Origin: Paenisporosarcina sp. FSL H8-0542
Lineage (GTDB): Bacteria; Bacillota; Bacilli; Bacillales_A; Planococcaceae
Direction: 5' to 3'
NCBI RefSeq assembly: GCF_038632915.1
Contig: NZ_CP152050.1
Coordinates: 664,501-728,500, forward strand
DNA: 64,000 nucleotides
Under the pieces are notes generated by a model, which did no database searches, had not been told where the DNA came from, and worked only from the letters and a program-made list of their open reading frames with translations. Each line of letters starts with the position of its first letter. Position 1 is the first letter of the stretch. Shown here one piece after another: positions 26,015 to 59,303 of this stretch. The position numbers were made by a program, and so were the translations under genes.

Positions 26015-26085
26015 AATTTTGTACAACCTGGAAAGCAATTCTGTCTACCTGGAAAGCAAAACTGTCTACCTGGTTTCGAAATTGA
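26015..26085. repeat. 21-bp periodic array, family A, three units
   Basis: The core TACAACCTGGAA / TCTACCTGGAA / TCTACCTGG recurs with ACCT ending at 26029, 26050 and 26071, exactly 21 bases apart; between the cores lie AGCAATTCTG and AGCAAAACTG. The same unit occurs inverted at 59224-59303. The period equals seven codons, and one plus-strand frame reads YNLESNS / VYLESKT / VYLVSKL. Function unknown. Confidence 0.8.
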
Positions 26086-48210: not shown

Positions 48211-48226
48211 GTAAGTAATTAAAATA

Positions 48227-48307
48227 GTTGCGGGGGGACGCATTGGCGTTGAGAAGGTTAAAACCTGACCCTTTGAACCTGTTCGTTAAGACGAACGTAG
48301 GGAGCAA
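48227..48307 (+). ncRNA. TPP riboswitch, first copy
   Basis: Conserved THI-box elements in order: GCGGGGGGAC, GTTGAGAAGG, ACCTGACCCTTTGAACCTG, GTTA and ACGTAGGGAGCAA. Followed by its own terminator at 48344. Binding of thiamine pyrophosphate should favour termination. Confidence 0.95.
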
Positions 48308-48343
48308 AGTACATAGCGGTTTAACGCTTTTGTTTTGTACTGT

Positions 48344-48369: not shown

Positions 48370-48390
48370 GTTTCTAATTCAATATTTTAA

Positions 48391-48469
48391 TTGCGGGGGG
48401 ACTTTTTAGTTGAGAAGGTTAAAACCTGACCCTTGGAACCTGACAGTTAACACTGACGTAGGGAGCAAT
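48391..48469 (+). ncRNA. TPP riboswitch, second copy
   Basis: Repeats the core of copy 1: TTGCGGGGGGAC, GTTGAGAAGGTTAAAACCTG, CCCTTGGAACCTGACAGTTA and ACGTAGGGAGCAATG. The inner AAGGTTAAAACCTGACCCT is identical to copy 1, while the P3/P5-side bases differ. It is followed by a second terminator. Confidence 0.95.
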
Positions 48470-48480
48470 GTTTCATCAGA

Positions 48481-48517
48481 AACGCTCTTTTGTCATACGC
48501 AAAAGGGCGTTTTTTGC
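48481..48517 (+). terminator. Riboswitch terminator 2
   Basis: AACGCTCTTTTG / CAAAAGGGCGTT around TCATACG, then TTTTTG, 33 bases before tenA. Confidence 0.88.
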
Positions 48518-49975: not shown

Positions 49976-50796
49976 ACATTGTCATGACGATAGCAGGCTC
50001 GGATAGTGGGGGCGGAGCCGGTATACAAGCCGATTTGAAAACATTTCAGGAACTTGGCGTATTTGGTACGTCTGCGATTACAGCGCTGACTGCTCAAAAC
50101 ACACTGGGTGTAGAAGGGATCTTTCCAGCATCACCCGATTTCGTGGCACAACAAATAGATGTTGTCTTTAAGGATATGCCCATCCAAGCAGTCAAAACAG
50201 GCATGCTCTTTTCAACAGAAATCATTGAAGAAGTAGCAAATAATTTGCGAGAAAAAAATGTACAGCTTGTCGTCGATCCCGTGATGATTGCCAAAGGAGG
50301 CGCAAATCTTTTACAGAATCAAGCCGTGGAAGCTTTACAGACTAACCTTTTGCCACTTGCAACAGTATTGACCCCAAATATTCCAGAAGCCGAGGTACTG
50401 GCTGGTTTGGCAATCCAATCGGAGTCGGATATGCAAAGAGCAGCTAAAGTGATTTTGGGAATGGGTGTCAATTGCGTGGTCATGAAGGGCGGTCATCTAG
50501 AAGAACGAGATACGGCAACAGATACAGTATTTATGGCCGATGGGACTAGCTTCAAAATGGTTACCCCTCGTATCAACACCAAGCATACACATGGAACGGG
50601 CTGTACGTTTTCTGCCGCATTGACTGCATTTTTGGGACAAGGAATTCCTTTGAAGGAAGCTTTGATCGAAGCGAAAAAATTTGTCCAGCTGGCTCTCGAG
50701 AATCCTCTTGGTATCGGCCATGGACATGGACCGACCAACCATTTCGCTTATAAGCAATTAAAAGCAATTTGTGAGGTGACCATCATTGAACCGTAA
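49972..50796 (+). CDS. thiD: Hydroxymethylpyrimidine (phosphate) kinase ThiD
   Basis: 274 residues. Two successive phosphorylations of HMP. TIAGSDSGGGAGIQADLKTF is the classic N-terminus, VVDPVMIAKGG and HTHGTGCTFSAALTAFLGQG follow. ATGA overlap with thiM and an 11-base overlap with thiE show tight coupling. Confidence 0.97.
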   Translation: MNIVMTIAGSDSGGGAGIQADLKTFQELGVFGTSAITALTAQNTLGVEGIFPASPDFVAQQIDVVFKDMPIQAVKTGMLFSTEIIEEVANNLREKNVQLVVDPVMIAKGGANLLQNQAVEALQTNLLPLATVLTPNIPEAEVLAGLAIQSESDMQRAAKVILGMGVNCVVMKGGHLEERDTATDTVFMADGTSFKMVTPRINTKHTHGTGCTFSAALTAFLGQGIPLKEALIEAKKFVQLALENPLGIGHGHGPTNHFAYKQLKAICEVTIIEP

Positions 50797-51424
50797 AGAT
50801 TTGGCAGTATACCTCATAATGGGTACACCCAATTGTGTGGAAGATCCCTTGGTTGTTTTAAAGGATGCGTTGGAGGCTGGAGTAACGATGTTTCAGTTGA
50901 GGGAAAAAGGTGATGGGGCGTTGAAAGGGGATGAACTGGAAGGGTTTGCTCGGCAATGTCAGGAAATATGCAAATCTTACAAGGTACCATTCATTATCAA
51001 TGACGATGTGGAATTAGCGATAAAATTGCATGCAGATGGGGTGCATGTAGGGCAGGATGACATCGCCCTTACGGAAATAAGAGAAAAGTTCACGGGACGA
51101 ATCGTGGGAGTTTCCGTACATACCCAACAAGAGCTAGAAGGTGCCATCAAAGGTGATGCGGATTATGTTGGGATTGGTCCGATATATGAAACAAGGTCGA
51201 AATCTGATGCAAAGGCTCCAGCAGGTCTAACATTCTTGCGACAAGCCCGAGGGTTACTTCCCGATTTCCCAATCGTTGCTATTGGAGGAATCACACCTGA
51301 AAATGCACACGAACCGCTGCAGGCTGGTGCCGACGGTGTGGCGATCATTTCAGCGATTTGTCAATGTCAGGACCGTCATGCAACAGTTTCCTTGATATTA
51401 AGCAAAGATGGAATTAGGAGATAA
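50786..51424 (+). CDS. thiE: Thiamine-phosphate synthase ThiE
   Basis: 212 residues. Joins HMP-PP with thiazole phosphate. TTG start inside thiD. MFQLREKG, PFIINDDVELAIKLHADGVH, VGQDD, YVGIGPIYETRSKSDA and AIGGITPENA are the family motifs. Last gene of the operon. With no thiC, thiG or thiF nearby the operon serves salvage. A 21-bp repeat array begins six bases past the stop. Confidence 0.97.
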   Translation: MNRKDLAVYLIMGTPNCVEDPLVVLKDALEAGVTMFQLREKGDGALKGDELEGFARQCQEICKSYKVPFIINDDVELAIKLHADGVHVGQDDIALTEIREKFTGRIVGVSVHTQQELEGAIKGDADYVGIGPIYETRSKSDAKAPAGLTFLRQARGLLPDFPIVAIGGITPENAHEPLQAGADGVAIISAICQCQDRHATVSLILSKDGIRR

Positions 51425-51430
51425 TTGGTT

Positions 51431-51514
51431 AGTTGCCCCAATAACGGGGAAAGTTGCCCCTATAACATGAAGAGTTGCCCCTATAGCTCGAAAAGTTGCC
51501 CCAATACATCAAAT
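51431..51514. repeat. 21-bp periodic array, family B, four units
   Basis: AGTTGCCCC begins at 51431, 51452, 51473 and 51494, exactly 21 bases apart each time. The 12 bases between cores vary (AATAACGGGGAA, TATAACATGAAG, TATAGCTCGAAA, AATACATCAAAT), with an AATA/TATA start kept. Directly after the thiE stop. The same spacing but another core occurs at 26026 and 59224. No stem or coding role is obvious. Confidence 0.88.
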
Positions 51515-59142: not shown

Positions 59143-59183
59143 TGGTATATACTCCCCTATCATTTTGATTTCTTAAATGTAGT

Positions 59184-59200
59184 ATACCCTAATGGGGTAT
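59184..59200 (-). promoter_or_regulatory. CsoR-like operator
   Basis: ATACCCTAATGGGGTAT on plus (same reading inverted on minus as ATACCCCATTAGGGTAT) fits the CsoR copper-repressor box of Bacillus (ATACCC-n4-GGGTAT). It lies 42 bases before the lipoprotein start and overlaps a TATACT box. Confidence 0.65.
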
Positions 59201-59223
59201 ATAATAAAAGTGAAAAGTCTGTC

Positions 59224-59303
59224 AGGTAGACAGAATGGGATTCTAGGTTGACAGTTCTGGATTCCAGGTAGACAGTTCTGCATTCCAGGTTGCACAAAAT
59301 TCC
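59224..59303. repeat. 21-bp periodic array, family A inverted, four units
   Basis: AGGTAGACAG, AGGTTGACAG, AGGTAGACAG and AGGTTGCAC begin at 59224, 59245, 59266 and 59287: exactly 21 bases apart. Between them lie AATGGGATTCT, TTCTGGATTCC and TTCTGCATTCC. Complement of the array at 26015-26085, including the flank TTGCACAAAATT. No gene overlaps. Confidence 0.88.

Follow-up and report, generated by a model that had tools for sequence, protein, structure and literature searches.

Short direct repeats spaced about two helical turns apart are found in the iterons of plasmid origins and in centromere-like tandem site arrays. The ends of Tn7-, Mu- and IS21-type elements carry a distinct outer unit starting with TGT, followed by repeated inner sites in a fixed direction. 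REP and BIME elements are short dispersed intergenic repeats whose palindromic units fold into hairpins, and CRISPR arrays are composed of repeats and spacers that are each longer than about 20 bp.

The arrays described here were found in the window, i.e., the whole 64,000-nucleotide stretch of Paenisporosarcina DNA that was analysed, and in the genome that it comes from (G000; one contig of 3,629,232 bases, 3.63 Mb). By kind, they are a dispersed intergenic repeat with iteron-like anatomy, since they are direct repeats at constant pitch with a conserved core. They share with iterons and centromere-like arrays the conserved core, the less conserved spacers and the small number of units per array, but here sixteen small arrays are spread over one chromosome, and there is no replication or partition gene among the neighbours scanned. 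Like REP and BIME elements, they are short, intergenic, present in many copies, limited to a lineage and often near gene ends. Unlike those elements, they are direct repeats at a fixed pitch without palindromes, and no RNA fold beyond that of shuffled sequences was predicted for the three window arrays on either strand (z from -1.48 to 0.27). A constant repeat alternating with variable spacers, with units gained and lost, is also seen in CRISPR arrays; in contrast, the core here is 12-13 bp and the spacers 8-9 bp (whole unit 21 bp), with 2-6 units in each of many scattered arrays, and no cas gene was matched among 28 scanned neighbours of the G000 arrays. In the Rfam scan of the window, no family was matched by the arrays, and only two tandem TPP riboswitches (Table 1) reached the gathering score. 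In that part of the open literature which full-text search covers, no publication on such arrays was found; since letter-string queries are too unspecific, this is weak evidence of absence.

Array anatomy in the window and along the chromosome

The original prediction placed four AGGT(A/T)GACAG units at 59224, 59245, 59266 and 59287 and three more, on the complementary strand, at 26029, 26050 and 26071. The observation as a whole is real and its coordinates hold, with the difference that the outermost unit of each array reads TGTRCAACCTGG in place of CTGTCWACCTGG. An exact search of the window for AGGTWGACAG returned positions 59224, 59245 and 59266 on the plus strand and 26041-26050 and 26062-26071 on the minus strand; the units at 59287 and 26029 are instead a cap (AGGTTGCACA / AGGTTGTACA). 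The 21-bp spacing was recovered by Tandem Repeats Finder, which gives a period of 21 at both arrays. A lone core with one mismatch is not rare by itself, being found nine times in the window versus 4.9 expected. The common flank ATTTTGTRCAACC was correctly seen and recurs with small variation at other arrays. It is also true that the two copies are inverted relative to each other, but this is no mark of a pair, as the orientations of the 16 arrays of the genome split 10 versus 6. In P. quisquiliarum (G005), the orthologues of both window arrays are also mutually inverted, about 24 kb apart versus 33 kb here (contig C35, at about 93.7 kb and 117.3 kb).

Table 1. Arrays and other features in the window, with positions counted from its first letter.
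Feature	Position	Strand	Composition	Span in genome-wide listing	Neighbouring genes
Family A array 1	26020..26082	+	2 internal units + 1 cap; cap TGTACAACCTGG at 26020, internal units CTGTCTACCTGG at 26041 and 26062, 21 bp apart	26020-26073	Convergent
Family A array 2	59222..59296	-	3 internal units + 1 cap; cap at 59285-59296, internal units at 59264, 59243 and 59222	59222-59296, inverted	Tandem
Family B array	51411-51514	+	Leader GAATTAGGAGATAATTGGTT at 51411-51430, four AGTTGCCCC units at 21 bp from 51431; matched by model R2		
TPP riboswitch	48222-48320	+	Rfam RF00059, 62.4 bits		
TPP riboswitch	48385-48481	+	Rfam RF00059, 63.9 bits		
Palindrome	59183-59203		ATACCCTAATGGGGTATA-like		Between array 2 and DUF1541 gene

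Family A comprises 16 arrays of 2-5 units in G000, both window arrays included; the count was made by a script run over the loci around pattern matches and the window, and it leaves aside, on grounds of score or unit number, one weak array located in a gene (window 61900) and the rows with a single unit (L168, L170). With the cap included, a two-unit pattern gave 11 exact matches in the whole genome versus 0 for the reversed control; for a pattern of two internal units, with at most 2 mismatches allowed, the figures were 37 versus 0. The layout is polar: a terminal cap TGTRCAACCTGG is followed by 1-4 internal units, each of them CTGTCWACCTGG plus 9 variable bases, and the arrays start with the cap or a cap variant, preceded by ATTT or a close variant. 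The logo of the internal unit, built with 32 caps and 100 internal units from G000 and G005, reads CTGTCWACCTGGA (13 conserved positions), followed by some five positions that are almost free and by a weak AWW.

The pitch is held closely. Core-to-core distances were taken over 55 loci plus the window (56 sources, 1.03 Mb on both strands, identical stretches counted once) for cores with a score of 9 or more out of 12; there were 155 at 21 bp, 90 at 42 bp and 50 at 63 bp, with two at 20, four at 22, three at 19 and one at 23 bp. An earlier script that allowed only intervals of 20, 21, 22 and 42 bp found exactly 21 bp in 117 of 121. The free spacer sites differ between pairs of spacers at 0.64 in G000 (chance 0.71) and at 0.70 in G005 (chance 0.74). 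In G003 the figure, from only 12 spacers, is 0.48 versus a chance value of 0.72, and this set looks younger or recently homogenised.

Seven codons also make 21 bp, and the original prediction had offered a repeated heptapeptide as one reading of the pitch; the family B array stands behind a ribosome-site-like leader and is readable as SCP(Y/N)xxK. Such a peptide is scarcely credible for either family. Every one of the six frames of family A is stopped in some arrays, with stops in 6 to 36 of 40 arrays depending on the frame; the frame with the fewest stops runs through 34 of the 40 (eight of which, from Paenisporosarcina sp. HGH0030, are near-copies of G000 arrays), but the open stretches are short, and no ribosome-binding site was seen by eye before the cap. 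In family B, the related core of G006, AGTTGATCA, puts TGA in frame although the leader is kept.

Distribution and turnover in the genus

The recurrence of such arrays was proposed as the check on the original observation, and a search of the whole genome and its relatives found arrays elsewhere with the 21-bp spacing kept. Model R1, a sequence-only model of the cap and two units built from 33 arrays, was run on 261 genomes of one bacterial family with strict filters, with which decayed copies can be missed. Strong matches were obtained only in five of the nine genus genomes, namely G000, G115 (the window species), G005, G003 and G004, with best E-values from 1e-18 to 3e-13. Seven genomes of other genera have a single match each (E 0.001 to 0.008), which we take as chance. 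In G004, the places L171 and L172 are weak R1 matches at which the script gave no array. Named genomes with pattern matches are Paenisporosarcina sp. HGH0030 and P. quisquiliarum SK 55. The genome-wide pattern matches and the genus-limited R1 matches bear out the common origin that had been suggested for the two window arrays. Viral contigs gave 0 matches in three exact-pattern scans, and the only plasmid matches, to 2 records with the family B array and to 10 with array 2, had E-values of about 9.

The arrays are largely inherited in place. In the sister strain G115, 15 of the 16 G000 arrays were paired by flank, and a decayed form of the sixteenth is present, so that all 16 of 16 sites are accounted for. 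G005 has a counterpart in the same orientation at the orthologous flank for 14 of the 16, L138 and L144 being without one; the two L135 arrays correspond to one array there, and the match at L142:5027 rests on a single flank. Both window sites carry an array in G115 and in G005. In G003, four of 18 arrays (L151, L158, L160 and L162) are at sites that have an array in G000 too. Array sites are retained across about 15% divergence. The gap between lplA and a response regulator gene holds an array in G000, G115, G005 and G003 and none in G004 and G007, where more than the array is missing. At the L176 gap there is no array in G003, G004, G006 or G007, and G000 seems to keep a decayed array remnant.

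Unit number differs between G000 and G115 in five of 15 pairs (L136, L138, L140, L141 and L143; in the L141 pair the G115 array was cut by a rearrangement). In the 10 pairs of equal unit number, differences were counted at 8 of 445 sites in core positions 1-13, 15 of 200 in spacers and 196 of 5914 in flanks (core vs. spacer p = 0.0008; spacer vs. flank p = 0.004; core vs. flank p = 0.09). The cores are steadier than the spacers, and are not provably steadier than ordinary intergenic DNA. That the spacers change faster than the flanks points to replacement or exchange of units. Unit types also change by lineage. In G003, most arrays are built of YCGTCAACCTGG units with a TGTACA cap, alongside some of G000 type, and each of the two genomes has its own unit type at their orthologous site L151 (G003) / L136 (G000). 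At L153, a unit has been duplicated with identical spacers, and repeated spacers occur in G261 as well.

This turnover could be that of a dispersed minisatellite without function, in which slippage and recombination spread and re-copy the units and no protein reads them. The differing unit numbers of the sister genomes, the fast spacers and the repeated spacers at L153 and in G261 are all as such a repeat would have them. It explains less well a pitch that stays fixed over drifting spacers. In the flanks, under other gap costs, there are 51 indels and, among 5880 sites, 152 substitutions, or roughly one indel for every three substitutions, which speaks against it, as does the distinct terminal unit that is retained in all species with family A. 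Overall, we regard a repeat of this kind as doubtful.

Two G003 loci, L153 and L166, are about 96% identical over the 147 bp that precede the array and the 83 bp that follow it. The L166 stretch overlaps the end of a histidine-phosphatase gene, i.e., a piece comprising the array and the gene end was copied; the duplicated segment also includes a terminator-like hairpin. Copying with flanks would be in keeping with the arrays being orphan ends of DDE transposons in the style of Tn7, Mu or IS21, with the TGT of the cap as the cleaved terminus, the internal units as transposase sites and single ends left behind. The outer TGT unit and the directed inner repeats of family A resemble such ends, and this account explains both the cap and the direction. 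It lacks, however, a second end, the arrays being single or in the same direction, and an rve transposase nearby: no array lies within 1.5 kb of the 25 rve loci examined (from 26 rve matches in eight of the nine genus genomes), and the sole rve match in G000 looks by eye like an IS3-type fragment. The IstB model PF01695, used as a check on IS21, gave four partial matches in G000 (37 to 20 bits, three over the cut-off) and also had matches in 13 of 14 control genomes. No transposase was found beside the G003 arrays among the 20 of 32 flanking proteins scanned. Stability in place across the divergence given above also speaks against transposon ends, and no target duplication is readable at the two loci where array-free orthologous gaps were aligned, the flanks being too diverged there to read boundaries. 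We consider this origin unlikely.

Genomic neighbourhood and a putative binding protein

The gaps that hold arrays are of all three kinds, convergent, tandem and divergent. Within 150 bp of the array, terminator-like hairpins that read toward it were found on the cap side in 18 of 52 cases and on the far side in 14, versus 5 and 5 of 52 for hairpins reading away (one G005 array is counted twice; the random control, 58 of 1500, was not limited to intergenic DNA), and this excess indicates that the arrays tend to sit at gene ends. Several arrays, such as array 2 before the DUF1541 gene, are upstream of a gene read away from the array, as would be the case for operators through which a transcription factor controls the adjacent genes. 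A regulon is nonetheless highly improbable, because several arrays, array 1 among them, have convergent genes on their two sides and because the 28 of 29 flanking proteins scanned in G000 have no common function. These include YebC, an amino-acid permease, Usp, a lipoate ligase, a response regulator, glutamyl-tRNA reductase, an impB/mucB-type polymerase, a 2-oxoacid dehydrogenase acyltransferase, NERD, a LuxR-type response regulator, a nuclease and DUF1541. The palindrome next to array 2 (Table 1) resembles the motif of CsoR-type copper operators and is a candidate site of this kind.

Two arrays flank a NERD gene in G000 (2.667 Mb, L141:4961-6277), and also flank the matching stretch in G005 and in G004, where it is two open frames. 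In G115 (L304), about 8 kb with genes for a LysR-type regulator, an MFS fragment and a subtilase replaces most of the NERD gene between these arrays, leaving about 200 bp of the NERD region. The NERD gene was considered as a required partner of the arrays and rejected, since G003, with 18 arrays, has one at this place without a NERD gene.

The pitch, the contrast between core and spacer, the terminal unit and the lineage-wise change of whole sets together favour a row of protein sites on one face of the DNA, and the copying of an array with its flanks in G003 is counted in favour of this reading too. We hold with middling confidence that the arrays are polar tandem sites of iteron-like kind for a putative dedicated, sequence-specific DNA-binding protein, and that they spread in the past as non-autonomous repeats. 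The 12-13 bp core CTGTCWACCTGGA would return on the same helix face every two turns, so that several copies of the protein could assemble side by side, presumably binding cooperatively, and the odd terminal unit would set the direction of the array. The original suggestion of a protein on one face fits the exact spacing, the conserved core and the free spacers, with the protein itself a putative one. The arrays may have entered the gaps between genes as short non-autonomous repeats and would now be mostly inherited in place, with units lost, gained and exchanged; any role in the cell is likewise a putative one. Against protein-binding arrays we count the core-to-flank comparison, which is not significant, and the identical spacers at L153, which show that simple tandem duplication is at work too. 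Where the arrays occur and how they are arranged is not in itself proof of a function.

Arrays that are multi-copy, polar and exactly phased suggest a dedicated protein, and none is annotated near them; the direct search, which covered transposase families, found no candidate. If the protein is found, the set-specific cores would be natural experiments on the joint change of a binding specificity and a chromosomal set of sites. If no such protein exists, the arrays would be a clean bacterial case of dispersed repeats in which the sequence drifts and the pitch is kept.

Family B and a probable wider 21-bp class

A second family, B, has six arrays in G000. In the window array, the leader (AATTAGGAGRNAAWTGGTT) overlaps the stop codon with which the open frame before it (50786-51424) ends. 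With model R2, family B arrays or arrays like them were detected in seven of the nine genus genomes, with a similar leader and other cores in G003 (CGAC) and G006 (ATCA). Beyond the genus, the pattern AAGTTGCNNNWA-N9-AAGTTGCNNNWA occurs at 89 places in 22 of the 261 genomes of the family, in nine of 19 genera, versus six single places for the reversed control. Without the fixed C, the pattern is in 52 of 261 genomes, no better than the reversed control (58), but the control never exceeds 3 matches per genome, whereas 16 genomes reach 4 to 39 (row sums for both searches were added by hand).

Cores among these AGTTG arrays include GGCA, GGAG, ATCG, CTCG and CCAG, sometimes several per genome. 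Family B and the arrays of other genera have in common the pitch and a GTTG-type core, with neighbouring bases specific to the set. In the genera g8 and g6, AGTTG arrays of at least three units have 3-6 units (4 or 5 in 22 of 25), AGTTG and position 10 being fixed by the search. The last unit differs in g8: AAA stands at positions 11-13 in 17 of 21 last units versus 34 of 73 others (p = 0.006). In the AGTTG direction, family A reads AGGTWGACAGAAT, and its last unit reads AGGTTGCACAAAAT. We infer that family A and the AGTTG arrays probably form one class, judging by the pitch, the GTTG-type half, the odd A-rich last unit and the placement rather than by an alignment score.

Tentatively, the genomes of this bacterial family may possess sets of small iterated 'address' sites with a common 21-bp pitch, a GTTG-type half and a set-specific block, each set possibly read by its own fast-diverging DNA-binding protein. 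Such a system of site recognition on the chromosome would be an undescribed one; it could be mobile or structural, and one genome would have several orthogonal sets.

A third 21-bp set, with AAGTTGGAAAAA cores, was seen at L336 and L312 in G007 and at L313 in G003, and the L336 array is itself embedded in a larger tandem repeat, of about 308 bp.
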